From Pandoraea capi (GTDB lineage Bacteria; Pseudomonadota; Gammaproteobacteria; Burkholderiales; Burkholderiaceae), in the NCBI RefSeq assembly GCF_902459735.1, contig NZ_CABPRV010000001.1, positions 372,001 to 436,000 of the forward strand: a DNA stretch of 64,000 nt, given 5' to 3'. This document shows positions 11,508-14,868 of this stretch, in pieces. The translations under genes were made by a program, and so were the position numbers. Positions within the stretch are counted from its first letter, which is position 1; the number at the start of each line of letters is the position of its first letter. The notes beneath the pieces are model-generated. The model searched no databases and had not been told where the DNA came from. It worked only from the letters and a program-made list of their open reading frames with translations.

Positions 11508-12995
11508 TCACACCCCGGCAAGACGCACGCCCGCCCGTTCGAGCAAGCGTTGATTGCGTGACGAGAGATGGACGAAGCGCAGATGCCGACCGGCTTTCCG
11601 GTAGCGCTCGACCAGCGTCTCGAACGCCACGATGGCCGAGTGATCGGCAACGTGGAGATGACGGCAATCGACCGTGACGTCGTGCAGGTCGGTGAGCGGT
11701 GCGAAGAGTTCCTGGAAATTCGCCGTCGACGCGAAGAACAGCGTGCCGTGCAGCACGTAAGTGCGGGCGTCGTGCGCGTTGTCCTCGATATCGGCGCGAA
11801 TCTCCCGCGCATGCTGCCAGGCGAAGTTGAGCGCAGCGATCACGATGCCGCACAGCACCGCCACCGCCAGATCCGTGAAGACGGTAATGATCGTCACCGC
11901 GACGATCACGATGGCGTCATTACGCGGCACCTTGCCGAGCACCCGCAGCGATCCCCACGCGAAGGTCTGTTGCGCGACGACGAACATCACACCGACGAGC
12001 GCCGCGAGCGGAATCCGCTCGATCAGCGGTGAGAGGAACAGCACGAACAGCAGGATCATGATCCCGGCGGTAGCGCCCGACACACGGGTGCGCCCGCCCG
12101 AACTCAGGTTGATCATCGTCTGCCCGATCATGGCGCAACCGCCCATGCCGCCGAACATTCCCGACACCACGTTCGACACGCCGAGCGCGAGGCATTCGCG
12201 GTTGGGACGGCCGCGCGTCTGCGTAATCTCGTCCGTCAGATTGAACGTGAGCAACGTCTCCAGCAGACCGACGATCGCCATGAGTAGTGCATAAGGAAAG
12301 ACGACACGCAGCGTGTCCAGATTCATCGGCACTTGCGGCAGATGGAGCGTCGGGAAACCGCCAGCGATATGGGCCATATCGCCCAGCGTGCGCGTGGGCA
12401 GATGCAACAACTGGCTCACGACACCGACACCGACAATGGCGACGAGCGCCGGCGGCACCGCCCTGGTGACGCGCGGCAACACGTAGACGATCAGCATCGT
12501 GACGGCAACCAGCGCACACATGATGGCGAGCGGCGTGCCGTGCAGCCAGACGTCGCCTTGCGGCGTGGCCTGCCTGAAGTGTTCGAGCTGCGCCATCGCA
12601 ATGATGATGGCCAGTCCGTTGACGAAACCGATCATCACCGGATGCGGCACCATGCGGATCAGTTTGCCGAGCCGCAGCATACCGAAGCCCATCATCAGCA
12701 GGCCGCTGAGCACGACCGTCGCCAGCAGATACTGCACGCCGTGCTCGACGACGAGCGCAACGATCACGACAGCCATCGACCCGGCAGCGCCGGAGATCAT
12801 GCCGGGGCGTCCGCCGAAAATGGCCGTGAGCGCACAGATGATGAATGCGCCGTACAACCCCATCAGCGGATTGACTTGTGCGACCAGTGCGAAGGCGATG
12901 CACTCGGGAACCAGCGCGAACGCGGTGGTGAGCCCGGCAAGGACGTTACCGGGGAGGTTCGGGAACCACTGATCCCGAAGCGTTGGAGACTTCAT
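11508..12995 (-). CDS. SulP-family anion transporter with STAS domain
   Basis: 495-aa inner-membrane transporter of the SulP/SLC26 family (sulfate, bicarbonate or other anions). The N-terminal family signature is FPNLPGNVLAGLTTAFALVP. About ten hydrophobic helices follow, including GGMGGCAMIGQTMINLSSGG. A cytosolic STAS domain lies at the C-terminus (about 395-490; VDCRHLHVADHSAIVAFETL region). It diverges from the two micropeptide genes, 227 bases away. The transported anion is not known. Confidence 0.9.
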   Translation of the reverse strand: MKSPTLRDQWFPNLPGNVLAGLTTAFALVPECIAFALVAQVNPLMGLYGAFIICALTAIFGGRPGMISGAAGSMAVVIVALVVEHGVQYLLATVVLSGLLMMGFGMLRLGKLIRMVPHPVMIGFVNGLAIIIAMAQLEHFRQATPQGDVWLHGTPLAIMCALVAVTMLIVYVLPRVTRAVPPALVAIVGVGVVSQLLHLPTRTLGDMAHIAGGFPTLHLPQVPMNLDTLRVVFPYALLMAIVGLLETLLTFNLTDEITQTRGRPNRECLALGVSNVVSGMFGGMGGCAMIGQTMINLSSGGRTRVSGATAGIMILLFVLFLSPLIERIPLAALVGVMFVVAQQTFAWGSLRVLGKVPRNDAIVIVAVTIITVFTDLAVAVLCGIVIAALNFAWQHAREIRADIEDNAHDARTYVLHGTLFFASTANFQELFAPLTDLHDVTVDCRHLHVADHSAIVAFETLVERYRKAGRHLRFVHLSSRNQRLLERAGVRLAGV

Positions 12996-13222
12996 GAATG
13001 ACGTTGAAGCAAAAAGATGCGGCGGACGCGCATTTTACCAGCCGTGCGCGCGCTGCCACTTCGGGCGTTTCGCGAACAGGTCGATACCGTCGTGGGGCAA
13101 ACGCCTGCGCAGACATGCTGAACGCACCTGTATTAATCGCAGTTTCGCCATCGAGCACGAAGTCGGATACTTCATTCAACGGCTCACGCAACACCGCGAA
13201 AGCCCCAACCAGGAGAACCACC

Positions 13223-13312
13223 ATGCCGATCGTACCCGCCCTGATGTATGCCGCCGAATACGCCTTCCAAGGCCTGATCCTGCTCTCGGCGACCAGCCCG
13301 TTCTGGCAATAA
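13223..13312 (+). CDS. SPFWQ micropeptide 1 (29 aa, hydrophobic)
   Basis: A 29-residue peptide with a strong ribosome site (AGGAGA, 7 bases before ATG). It starts MPIVP, is hydrophobic and helix-like through the middle (one possible membrane span), and ends GLILLSATSPFWQ. A second, clearly related peptide follows 58 bases later with the same beginning (MP[IL].P) and end (GLI..SA.SPFWQ). The frame is open upstream to ATG 12998, but the local ribosome site argues for an independent start at 13223. No known family is recognised. Possible roles are a membrane microprotein or a secreted or modified peptide. Confidence 0.65.
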   Translation: MPIVPALMYAAEYAFQGLILLSATSPFWQ

Positions 13313-13370
13313 GACGACACCACCGACGTATCACCCTCACCATCATCCGACTTACTGAAGGAGAAACACC

Positions 13371-13451
13371 ATGCCCCTGCTCCCCCTGTTCGCTGAAGGC
13401 GCTCTGTATCTCACCGGCCTTATTTCCGCAGCATCGCCCTTCTGGCAATAA
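13371..13451 (+). CDS. SPFWQ micropeptide 2 (26 aa, hydrophobic)
   Basis: A 26-residue peptide, paralog of the preceding one. AAGGAGA lies 6-7 bases before the ATG. It begins MPLLP, continues with a hydrophobic segment and ends GLISAASPFWQ, sharing the last five residues exactly with peptide 1. A terminator-like hairpin follows about 50 bases later, so the two probably share one short transcript. Retention of both ends with divergence in the middle suggests selection on the peptide. Function unknown. Confidence 0.65.
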   Translation: MPLLPLFAEGALYLTGLISAASPFWQ

Positions 13452-13502
13452 GTGCATCAAGCGGATCTACGCCGATGGCCGATGGCCAACGCAAATGAAG
13501 AA

Positions 13503-13530
13503 AGCCCTGACGTGTCAGGGCTCTCTCCGT
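13503..13530 (+). terminator. Terminator-like hairpin after the micropeptides
   Basis: Inverted repeat AGCCCTGA/TCAGGGCT (13503-13510 and 13515-13522) with loop CGTG, followed by a CT-rich run. The stem matches the one used after the tRNA-Cys gene near 58.74 kb. Confidence 0.6.
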
Positions 13531-13828: not shown

Positions 13829-14597
13829 TCAGATGCGTGCGTAATTCTGCGAGGCAAACGTCCAGTTCAACTTCTTCGCGATTGTCTCGGCGAGATAGTC
13901 CGGACGGCGATTCTGATAGTCGAGGTAATACGCGTGCTCCCACACATCGACCGTGAGCAACGGCAGTTGTCCGCTACGCGTGAACGGCGTTTGCGCGTTC
14001 CCCGTCTTCACGACGGCCAGCTCATGCTTGTCGTCGACGACGAGCCATCCCCAGCCGCTGCCGAACTGAGATGCCGACACCGACATCAGTTGCTTCGACA
14101 GCGCTTCGACCGAACCGAACTTGGCGACGATCGCCTTGGCGAGACGCTCGTCCGGCTGCGTCTGCATAGGGCTCAGCGACTTCCAGTAGAAGTTGTGATT
14201 CCACGCCTGTGCGGCATTGTTGAAGATGTCTTCCATGTCCTCGCGACCGTGCGACTTCAGGATCAGTTGTTCGAGCGTGGCGTTGGCGAGCGGCGAATCG
14301 GCCAGCAGCTTGTGAAGATTCGTGAAATACGCCTGGTGGTGCTTGCCGTAGTGAATACCGATGGTTCGAGCGGAGATGACGGGTTCGAGCGCGTCCTGCG
14401 CGTAGGGCAGATTGGGCAGCGATTGCGGCGACGCACCGAGATACGCGAGCAGCGCGGCTTCGTCGAGCTTTTTTGACCGATTTCTTCGGCGAAGACGACT
14501 GCGGCTGCGCAAAGGCCAGGTTCGACATGACGAGCGCGGCACCGCCGAGCGAACCGCTGGTGAGCATCCGACGGCGAGACAGGAGCGTTTGAGACAT
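13829..14597 (-). CDS. Tat-exported Fe/Mn superoxide dismutase, frame-shifted at an A6 run
   Basis: The catalytic part (reverse strand, 14480 down to 13829) is an Fe/Mn superoxide dismutase: IGIHYGKHHQAYFTNLHKLL, AAQAWNHNFYWKSL, SGWGWLVVDD, and metal ligands in TVDVWEHAYYLDYQNRRPDY. The preceding codons in another frame encode a Tat signal (MSQTLLSRRRMLTSGS.., cleaved after NLAFA) from ATG 14597. The two frames meet at six A residues (T-run 14469-14474). With five A residues the protein would read through as SVKKLDEAALLAYLG. It could be a real mutation, a slippage site or a sequencing error. An out-of-frame ATG at 14542 would yield a protein without a signal. Confidence 0.8.
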
Positions 14598-14868
14598 GAT
14601 CATTTCCGATTCGTTGGGGGGAGTGTGAGGGATATCAGTAGCACCTCTCACTCCCATAACGATTCGTCGCGTCGACTTATTCCGCGCTTTTCAGAATTTT
14701 TCAGCGAAGGGAGTTGCGCAAGTCGGGGGTGTGGTCAGCGTCACGCGTGGCGACGATGCGTGACGGGCGTCGCATCCCGTCGAAATGAATTGCCGCTAGA
14801 AAGTATGAGACTATCCGCGAATCGAGCAATTCAGCCAGATCGGTCGGGCCAACCCTCGGGAGTCGGAA

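Follow-up and report, generated by a model that had tools for sequence, protein, structure and literature searches.

A promoter-linked set of leaderless micropeptide operons, apparently undescribed, in Pandoraea

Are two very short tandem open reading frames (ORFs) in the genome of Pandoraea capi real genes, and if so, what do they belong to? They lie in the window (the whole 64,000-nucleotide stretch of DNA analyzed here), between a SulP transporter gene and a SOD-like gene. A sequence-only reading had singled them out as two genes of 29 and 26 codons, separated by 58 bases, each with an AGGAGA ribosome site, followed by a hairpin and diverging from the SulP gene. We recovered each of these elements:

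11508 to 12995, minus strand: SulP gene, divergent from the micropeptide operon
13211 to 13216, plus strand: ribosome site AGGAGA of micropeptide 1
13223 to 13312, plus strand: micropeptide 1, MPIVPALMYAAEYAFQGLILLSATSPFWQ, 29 codons (29 aa), YAFQG family
13359 to 13364, plus strand: ribosome site AGGAGA of micropeptide 2
13371 to 13451, plus strand: micropeptide 2, MPLLPLFAEGALYLTGLISAASPFWQ, 26 codons (26 aa), EGxxY family
13497 to 13528, no strand assigned: terminator-like hairpin separating the operon from the SOD gene, matched also in genomes G001, G008, G014, G021, and G042

The hairpin scores as terminator-like on the minus strand only, and its plus-strand T run is weak by eye. Both peptides have the layout MPxxP...GLI...SPFWQ, as had been described. 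Upstream, the frame of micropeptide 1 stays open as far as an ATG at 12998 (104 aa), and a conserved promoter, described below, sits within this upstream open stretch. The neighboring SOD-like gene (13829 to 14657, minus strand) is split over two frames in the window, with the frame change near 14470 at a run of T; this is either a true lesion or a sequencing error, and in G001 the gene is one open frame.

The two window peptides are clearly homologous by alignment (z 7.4; 0 of 5000 shuffles were equally good). The earlier suggestion of selection on the peptide was borne out among relatives: pN/pS in the first family (same-length pairs only) was 0.22 in the true frame versus 1.01 and 4.68 in the other frames, and in the second family it was 0.55 versus 0.98 and 2.07. 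Frame-specific selection was found in four of the five ORF families tested. The fifth, core1, gave 0.71 in the true frame versus 0.66 in frame 1; as it lacks a frame contrast, it is taken as coding on the strength of ribosome sites, recurrence, and composition. A profile of both window families found 15 copies (E < 1e-6), including the 13 sequences used to build it, in 12 of 32 Pandoraea genomes. A search for homologues across Burkholderiales had been suggested as a check; relatives with a kept frame were present within Pandoraea, and none were seen in Burkholderiales at large. The kept SPFWQ tail holds for the window pair but is not invariant, since the relatives have P-[FLM]-[FWL]-[QH]. A search with the literal PFWQ tail gave matches in 16 of 41 genomes, mostly by chance, and was set aside. 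We also rejected a core2 profile match (L193; other family, E 0.003) that is off-frame inside a response-regulator gene; two more weak matches, L194 and L195, fall within frames of 1261 and 278 aa. Six peptides had 0 matches in Pfam and PHROGs, and five peptides searched against NCBIfam had a single match of 10 bits against a cut-off of 371, with none near a cut-off, which agrees with the initial impression that no described family is involved. No description of this micropeptide system was found in the portions of the literature that our searches reached. We conclude that the window ORFs are real and form part of an apparently undescribed, Pandoraea-wide micropeptide set.

What defines this set is found upstream of the ORFs. 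When the window region was used to search the DNA of 32 genomes of the genus, the stretch upstream of the pair matched several unrelated places per genome. This promoter-like stretch, TTGTATTAATCRCAGTTTCG-N18-GATACTTCA, occurs at one to three places per promoter-bearing genome and has the following parts in the window:

13128 to 13147, plus strand: box CTGTATTAATCGCAGTTTCG, which overlies the -35 region and is proposed as a response-regulator site; it recurs before 39 distinct micro-operons
13166 to 13174, plus strand: GATACTTCA, proposed as the -10 region, with 18 bases between it and the box
13175 to 13210, plus strand: conserved transcript start TCAACGGCTCACGCAACAC..., part of the promoter-set consensus

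The pattern TATWNATCRCAGTTTCG-N{8,26}-GATACTTCA was found at 25 places in 20 of the 32 Pandoraea genomes, and the spacing from box to -10 was 18 bases in 25 of 25 matches, with 8 to 26 permitted. Of the 398 genomes of the family searched with a looser form, 23 had a match (23 of 32 Pandoraea genomes and 0 of 366 others), and all 18 promoter-matching stretches in a collection of named genomes were from Pandoraea. Reversed-pattern controls of the promoter searches gave 0 matches. In total, we gathered 39 distinct promoter sequences. Within the window genome, the pattern TATWNATCRCAGT occurs at three sites only: before the window pair, at a core operon on contig C8, and at the autotransporter gene divergent from that operon. 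At the core locus, the divergent gene is preceded by a related form of the box. Across the 32 genomes, 46 of 47 matches to GTATWAATCRCAGTNNC lay, by position, at micro-operons or the divergent gene, with none in the reversed control. The remaining match precedes a urease-like gene (ureA by eye) in G019 (G019:C1:303393-303409, L206); we took it as chance, as about one such match is expected in 32 genomes by our estimate.

Downstream of each promoter are one to four short ORFs, which have GGAG-type ribosome sites and form an operon. By script, one ORF followed 16 of the 39 promoters, two followed 6, three followed 15, and four followed 2; because the ORF finder requires a GGAG-type site and drops some ORFs, the resulting 81 ORFs are a lower bound. 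Three kinds of operon could be distinguished. The core operon encodes MPALITYGF..., then ...CIETGMQCAIHVGHVFGY, and then variable ORFs, the window-type satellite carries members of the YAFQG family and of the EGxxY family, and five genomes have a third satellite (MNPIVIAAALYG...). Different core peptides (M[FI]PFAYLFD..., MAAIAYY...) occur in G007, G010, G011, and G045. Six micropeptides were found in the window's own genome. Judged by its promoter, the window pair is one of the satellites in a set that spans several loci, and this set was seen only in Pandoraea.

The satellites vary in position. The one between the SulP and SOD genes is present in G000, G001, G014, G021, and G042, and in G008 the ORFs are missing (by eye), although the SulP end is still there, as are the hairpin and the SOD gene. 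The YAFQG satellite lies between porin-like and purH-like genes (named by eye) in G007, G011, and G045 and at other sites in G009 and G017. Since sites and losses differ among genomes, the operons seem to be gained and lost as small units along with their promoter. In G019, an operon is located on a plasmid, away from the response-regulator gene of the core locus. Plasmid records gave one match, on the conjugative plasmid pPF72-1 of P. faecigallinarum (L189, NZ_CP011808.2 41682-41831), and the phage records searched gave none. On pPF72-1, core 1-like and core 2-like ORFs are fused into one of 49 residues, annotated as the 49-aa hypothetical protein WP_157112500.1; in this record, the sole annotated one examined, only the fused form is listed. 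Its neighbors are an IS481 transposase gene and another response-regulator gene, which by its sequence is not that of the core locus.

Which regulator could serve such a promoter? Beside the core operon are genes for a REC-LuxR response regulator (RR) and a histidine kinase (HK) with a 4HB_MCP sensor. The RR is present in 24 of the 32 Pandoraea genomes, and the HK adjoins it in all 24. The promoter was found in 23 of the 24 genomes with the RR and in 0 of the 8 without it (Fisher P = 9e-7, with genomes counted as independent and kinship ignored); the exception, G012, has both RR and HK and no promoter match. From the box, the layout, and this co-occurrence, we infer that the RR directly controls the box promoters. 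In a sample of 399 genomes from the order, relatives of the RR (44-53% identity) were found in 10 other genomes, and each of the stretches read there (6-14 kb) also encodes a related kinase (27-31% identity). The box was absent from these 10 stretches outside the genus, 128 kb in all, so other Burkholderiales REC-LuxR/HK pairs resemble that of Pandoraea in the regulators but differ in lacking the box. No exporter was recognized by eye beside core loci with listed ORFs.

Among the 24 RR-bearing genomes, the gene divergent from the core operon encodes a near-full-length autotransporter in 17, all 17 with an HEVxH motif; where the core peptides are of the different kind (four genomes), it encodes a lipoprotein. 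It is present as fragments in G008 and was not found in G012 and G041. One such autotransporter (L082:7220-10603, minus strand) has 1127 aa, a PF03797 domain, and an N-terminal HEVxH. The first domain had no significant Pfam or PDB match; its AlphaFold model was poor (pLDDT 61) and Foldseek returned 0 matches with E up to 0.001, so that a metalloprotease reading rests on the HEVxH motif.

We then turned to the physical design of the peptides. The 66 distinct peptides have 23-49 residues (mean, 27), and all 66 have a net charge of 0 or below. Lysine and arginine make up 1.3% of their residues, and 60 of the 66 have F, W, or Y within the last three positions. For 20 representatives, chosen greedily at <55% identity, the helical hydrophobic moment had a mean percentile of 0.85 relative to their own shuffles (KS P = 6e-9), with one peptide at 0.26, and strand periodicity was under chance (0.31); as some representatives are still related, the helix test is not fully independent. 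The control set, 45 hydrophobic ORFs picked from the window by a mechanical search, had a helical-moment percentile of 0.55. Net charge was 0 or below in 17 of these 45 versus 20 of 20 representatives, and an aromatic end was present in 12 of 45 versus 19 of 20. AlphaFold modeled core2 as helices (pLDDT 71). The sequence-only reading had proposed a membrane microprotein family or else a secreted signal or modified peptide; the membrane-seeking character stands, but the hydrophobicity periodicity peaks at 90-100 degrees, which is the pattern predicted for amphipathic helices and not for plain membrane spans. Because charge, aromatic end, and helix periodicity are kept across differing peptides, what is conserved between operons is, by these measures, the design rather than the sequence.

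Our tentative reading is that these loci form a Pandoraea-specific regulon under a two-component system, and that its leaderless, amphipathic micropeptides work at membranes or interfaces, most likely extracellularly. Its sequence-based part (the ORFs, the selection, the common promoter, the co-occurrence with the RR, and the helix pattern) is demonstrated at that level. The HK with its four-helix sensor and the LuxR-type RR would act at the -35-overlapping box TTGTATTAATCRCAG and turn on one to three separate operons, each with genes for one to four leaderless peptides (23-49 residues), as well as the divergent surface gene (the autotransporter or, in four genomes, the lipoprotein). As one design is kept (an amphipathic helix, neutral or acidic, whose C terminus is aromatic), we infer that the peptides most likely act on membranes or interfaces, on which they would lie or into which they would insert. 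As for export and role, our guess is that they act outside the cell in surfactant activity, biofilm, or antagonism, like the staphylococcal phenol-soluble modulins (PSMs). Points that weigh against this reading are, chiefly, the lack of a recognized exporter and also the missing frame contrast of core1, the RR and HK of G012 with no promoter match, and the plasmid location of the G019 operon apart from the RR.

PSM operons encode small leaderless amphipathic surfactant peptides in Gram-positive staphylococci and are under AgrA, a LytTR regulator; PSMs leave the cell through a dedicated ABC exporter and have surfactant or lytic activity. The PSM-type design, a leaderless amphipathic alpha-helix of ~20-45 residues, is matched here by peptides of 23-49 residues with a moment percentile of 0.85. 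Both systems have several such peptides per operon and several operons, and those of Pandoraea, too, are apparently under one two-component regulator. In contrast to staphylococci, Pandoraea is Gram-negative, its regulator is REC-LuxR, its peptides are neutral or acidic with aromatic ends, and neither cyclic pheromone genes nor an exporter were recognized. The likeness is one of organization and peptide design. A full Gram-negative counterpart of agr/PSM, that is, a two-component-driven, genus-specific, fast-diversifying set of exported noncationic micropeptides whose satellites spread, even to a conjugative plasmid, by carrying the box, is a rather unlikely extension. Multipeptide leaderless bacteriocins such as aureocin A70 and garvicin KS are likewise encoded by two to four tandem genes, each behind its own ribosome site, for leaderless peptides of ~30 residues. 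These bacteriocins are cationic, however, whereas 0 of 66 Pandoraea peptides have a positive net charge, and no immunity or ABC exporter gene was recognized by eye beside the Pandoraea operons.

Could the peptides stay inside the producer? As regulators at the membrane surface or in the inner membrane, they might feed back on the neighboring kinase or on envelope proteins. Small proteins such as MgrB and SafA do act on kinases, the operon adjoins the RR and HK, and no signal peptide or exporter was recognized. However, one to four differing peptides per operon, unrelated sets between clades, and a conserved sensor fit poorly with a single target, and a lysine/arginine content of only 1.3% is unusual for inner-membrane micropeptides; we consider this explanation unlikely. 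A related idea, a peptide quorum system in which the peptides are pheromone precursors sensed by the HK, draws on the kept C termini and on a sensor that is more variable than the kinase domain (mean identities of 84% and 90%), and a loop is possible because the peptide operon, preceded by the box, adjoins the genes for the HK and RR. Sensor identity to the window genome is 78-92% across the genomes compared, but it is still 78-79% in the four genomes whose core peptides are unrelated, and core operons encode three or four peptides, which makes pheromone precursors improbable.

Type I toxins restrained by antisense RNA would account for short hydrophobic peptides in tandem copies at several loci, and the known examples Ibs and Ldr are short hydrophobic toxins of this kind. 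The Pandoraea operons differ in being polycistronic, with a common regulated promoter tied to the RR; a simple consensus scan saw no antisense promoter, with no minus-strand sigma-70-like site in 13128-13528, and there was no Rfam match at the operon. We consider toxins of this type very improbable here. Finally, the conserved part could be a regulatory RNA with incidental ORFs, as the transcript start (CGGCTNACGCAACAC) is conserved across operons with differing ORFs. Against this, selection is frame specific in four of five families, every ORF is preceded by a ribosome site, and RNA folding is not in excess (z 0.26), again with no Rfam match; we see hardly any chance that it is correct.

If the reading as a two-component regulon of membrane-active micropeptides is true, Pandoraea, a genus that includes cystic fibrosis opportunists, carries a micropeptide regulon that annotation appears to miss. 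It would provide a test case of tiny peptide families whose physical design (an amphipathic helix, the absence of positive charge, and an aromatic end) persists through sequence change and of satellite operons that enter a regulon by bringing the promoter box. The common promoter and the regulator pair make this hidden peptide system testable.

As a separate observation, a gene for a Peptidase_C39-like protein (L087:10031-10663, minus strand) lies between the micro-operon and the RR gene in G011. The match, to PF13529, is below the cut-off (E 0.0024). Relatives of this protein are present in G045 and G007, which brings the total to three of the four genomes with alternative core peptides.
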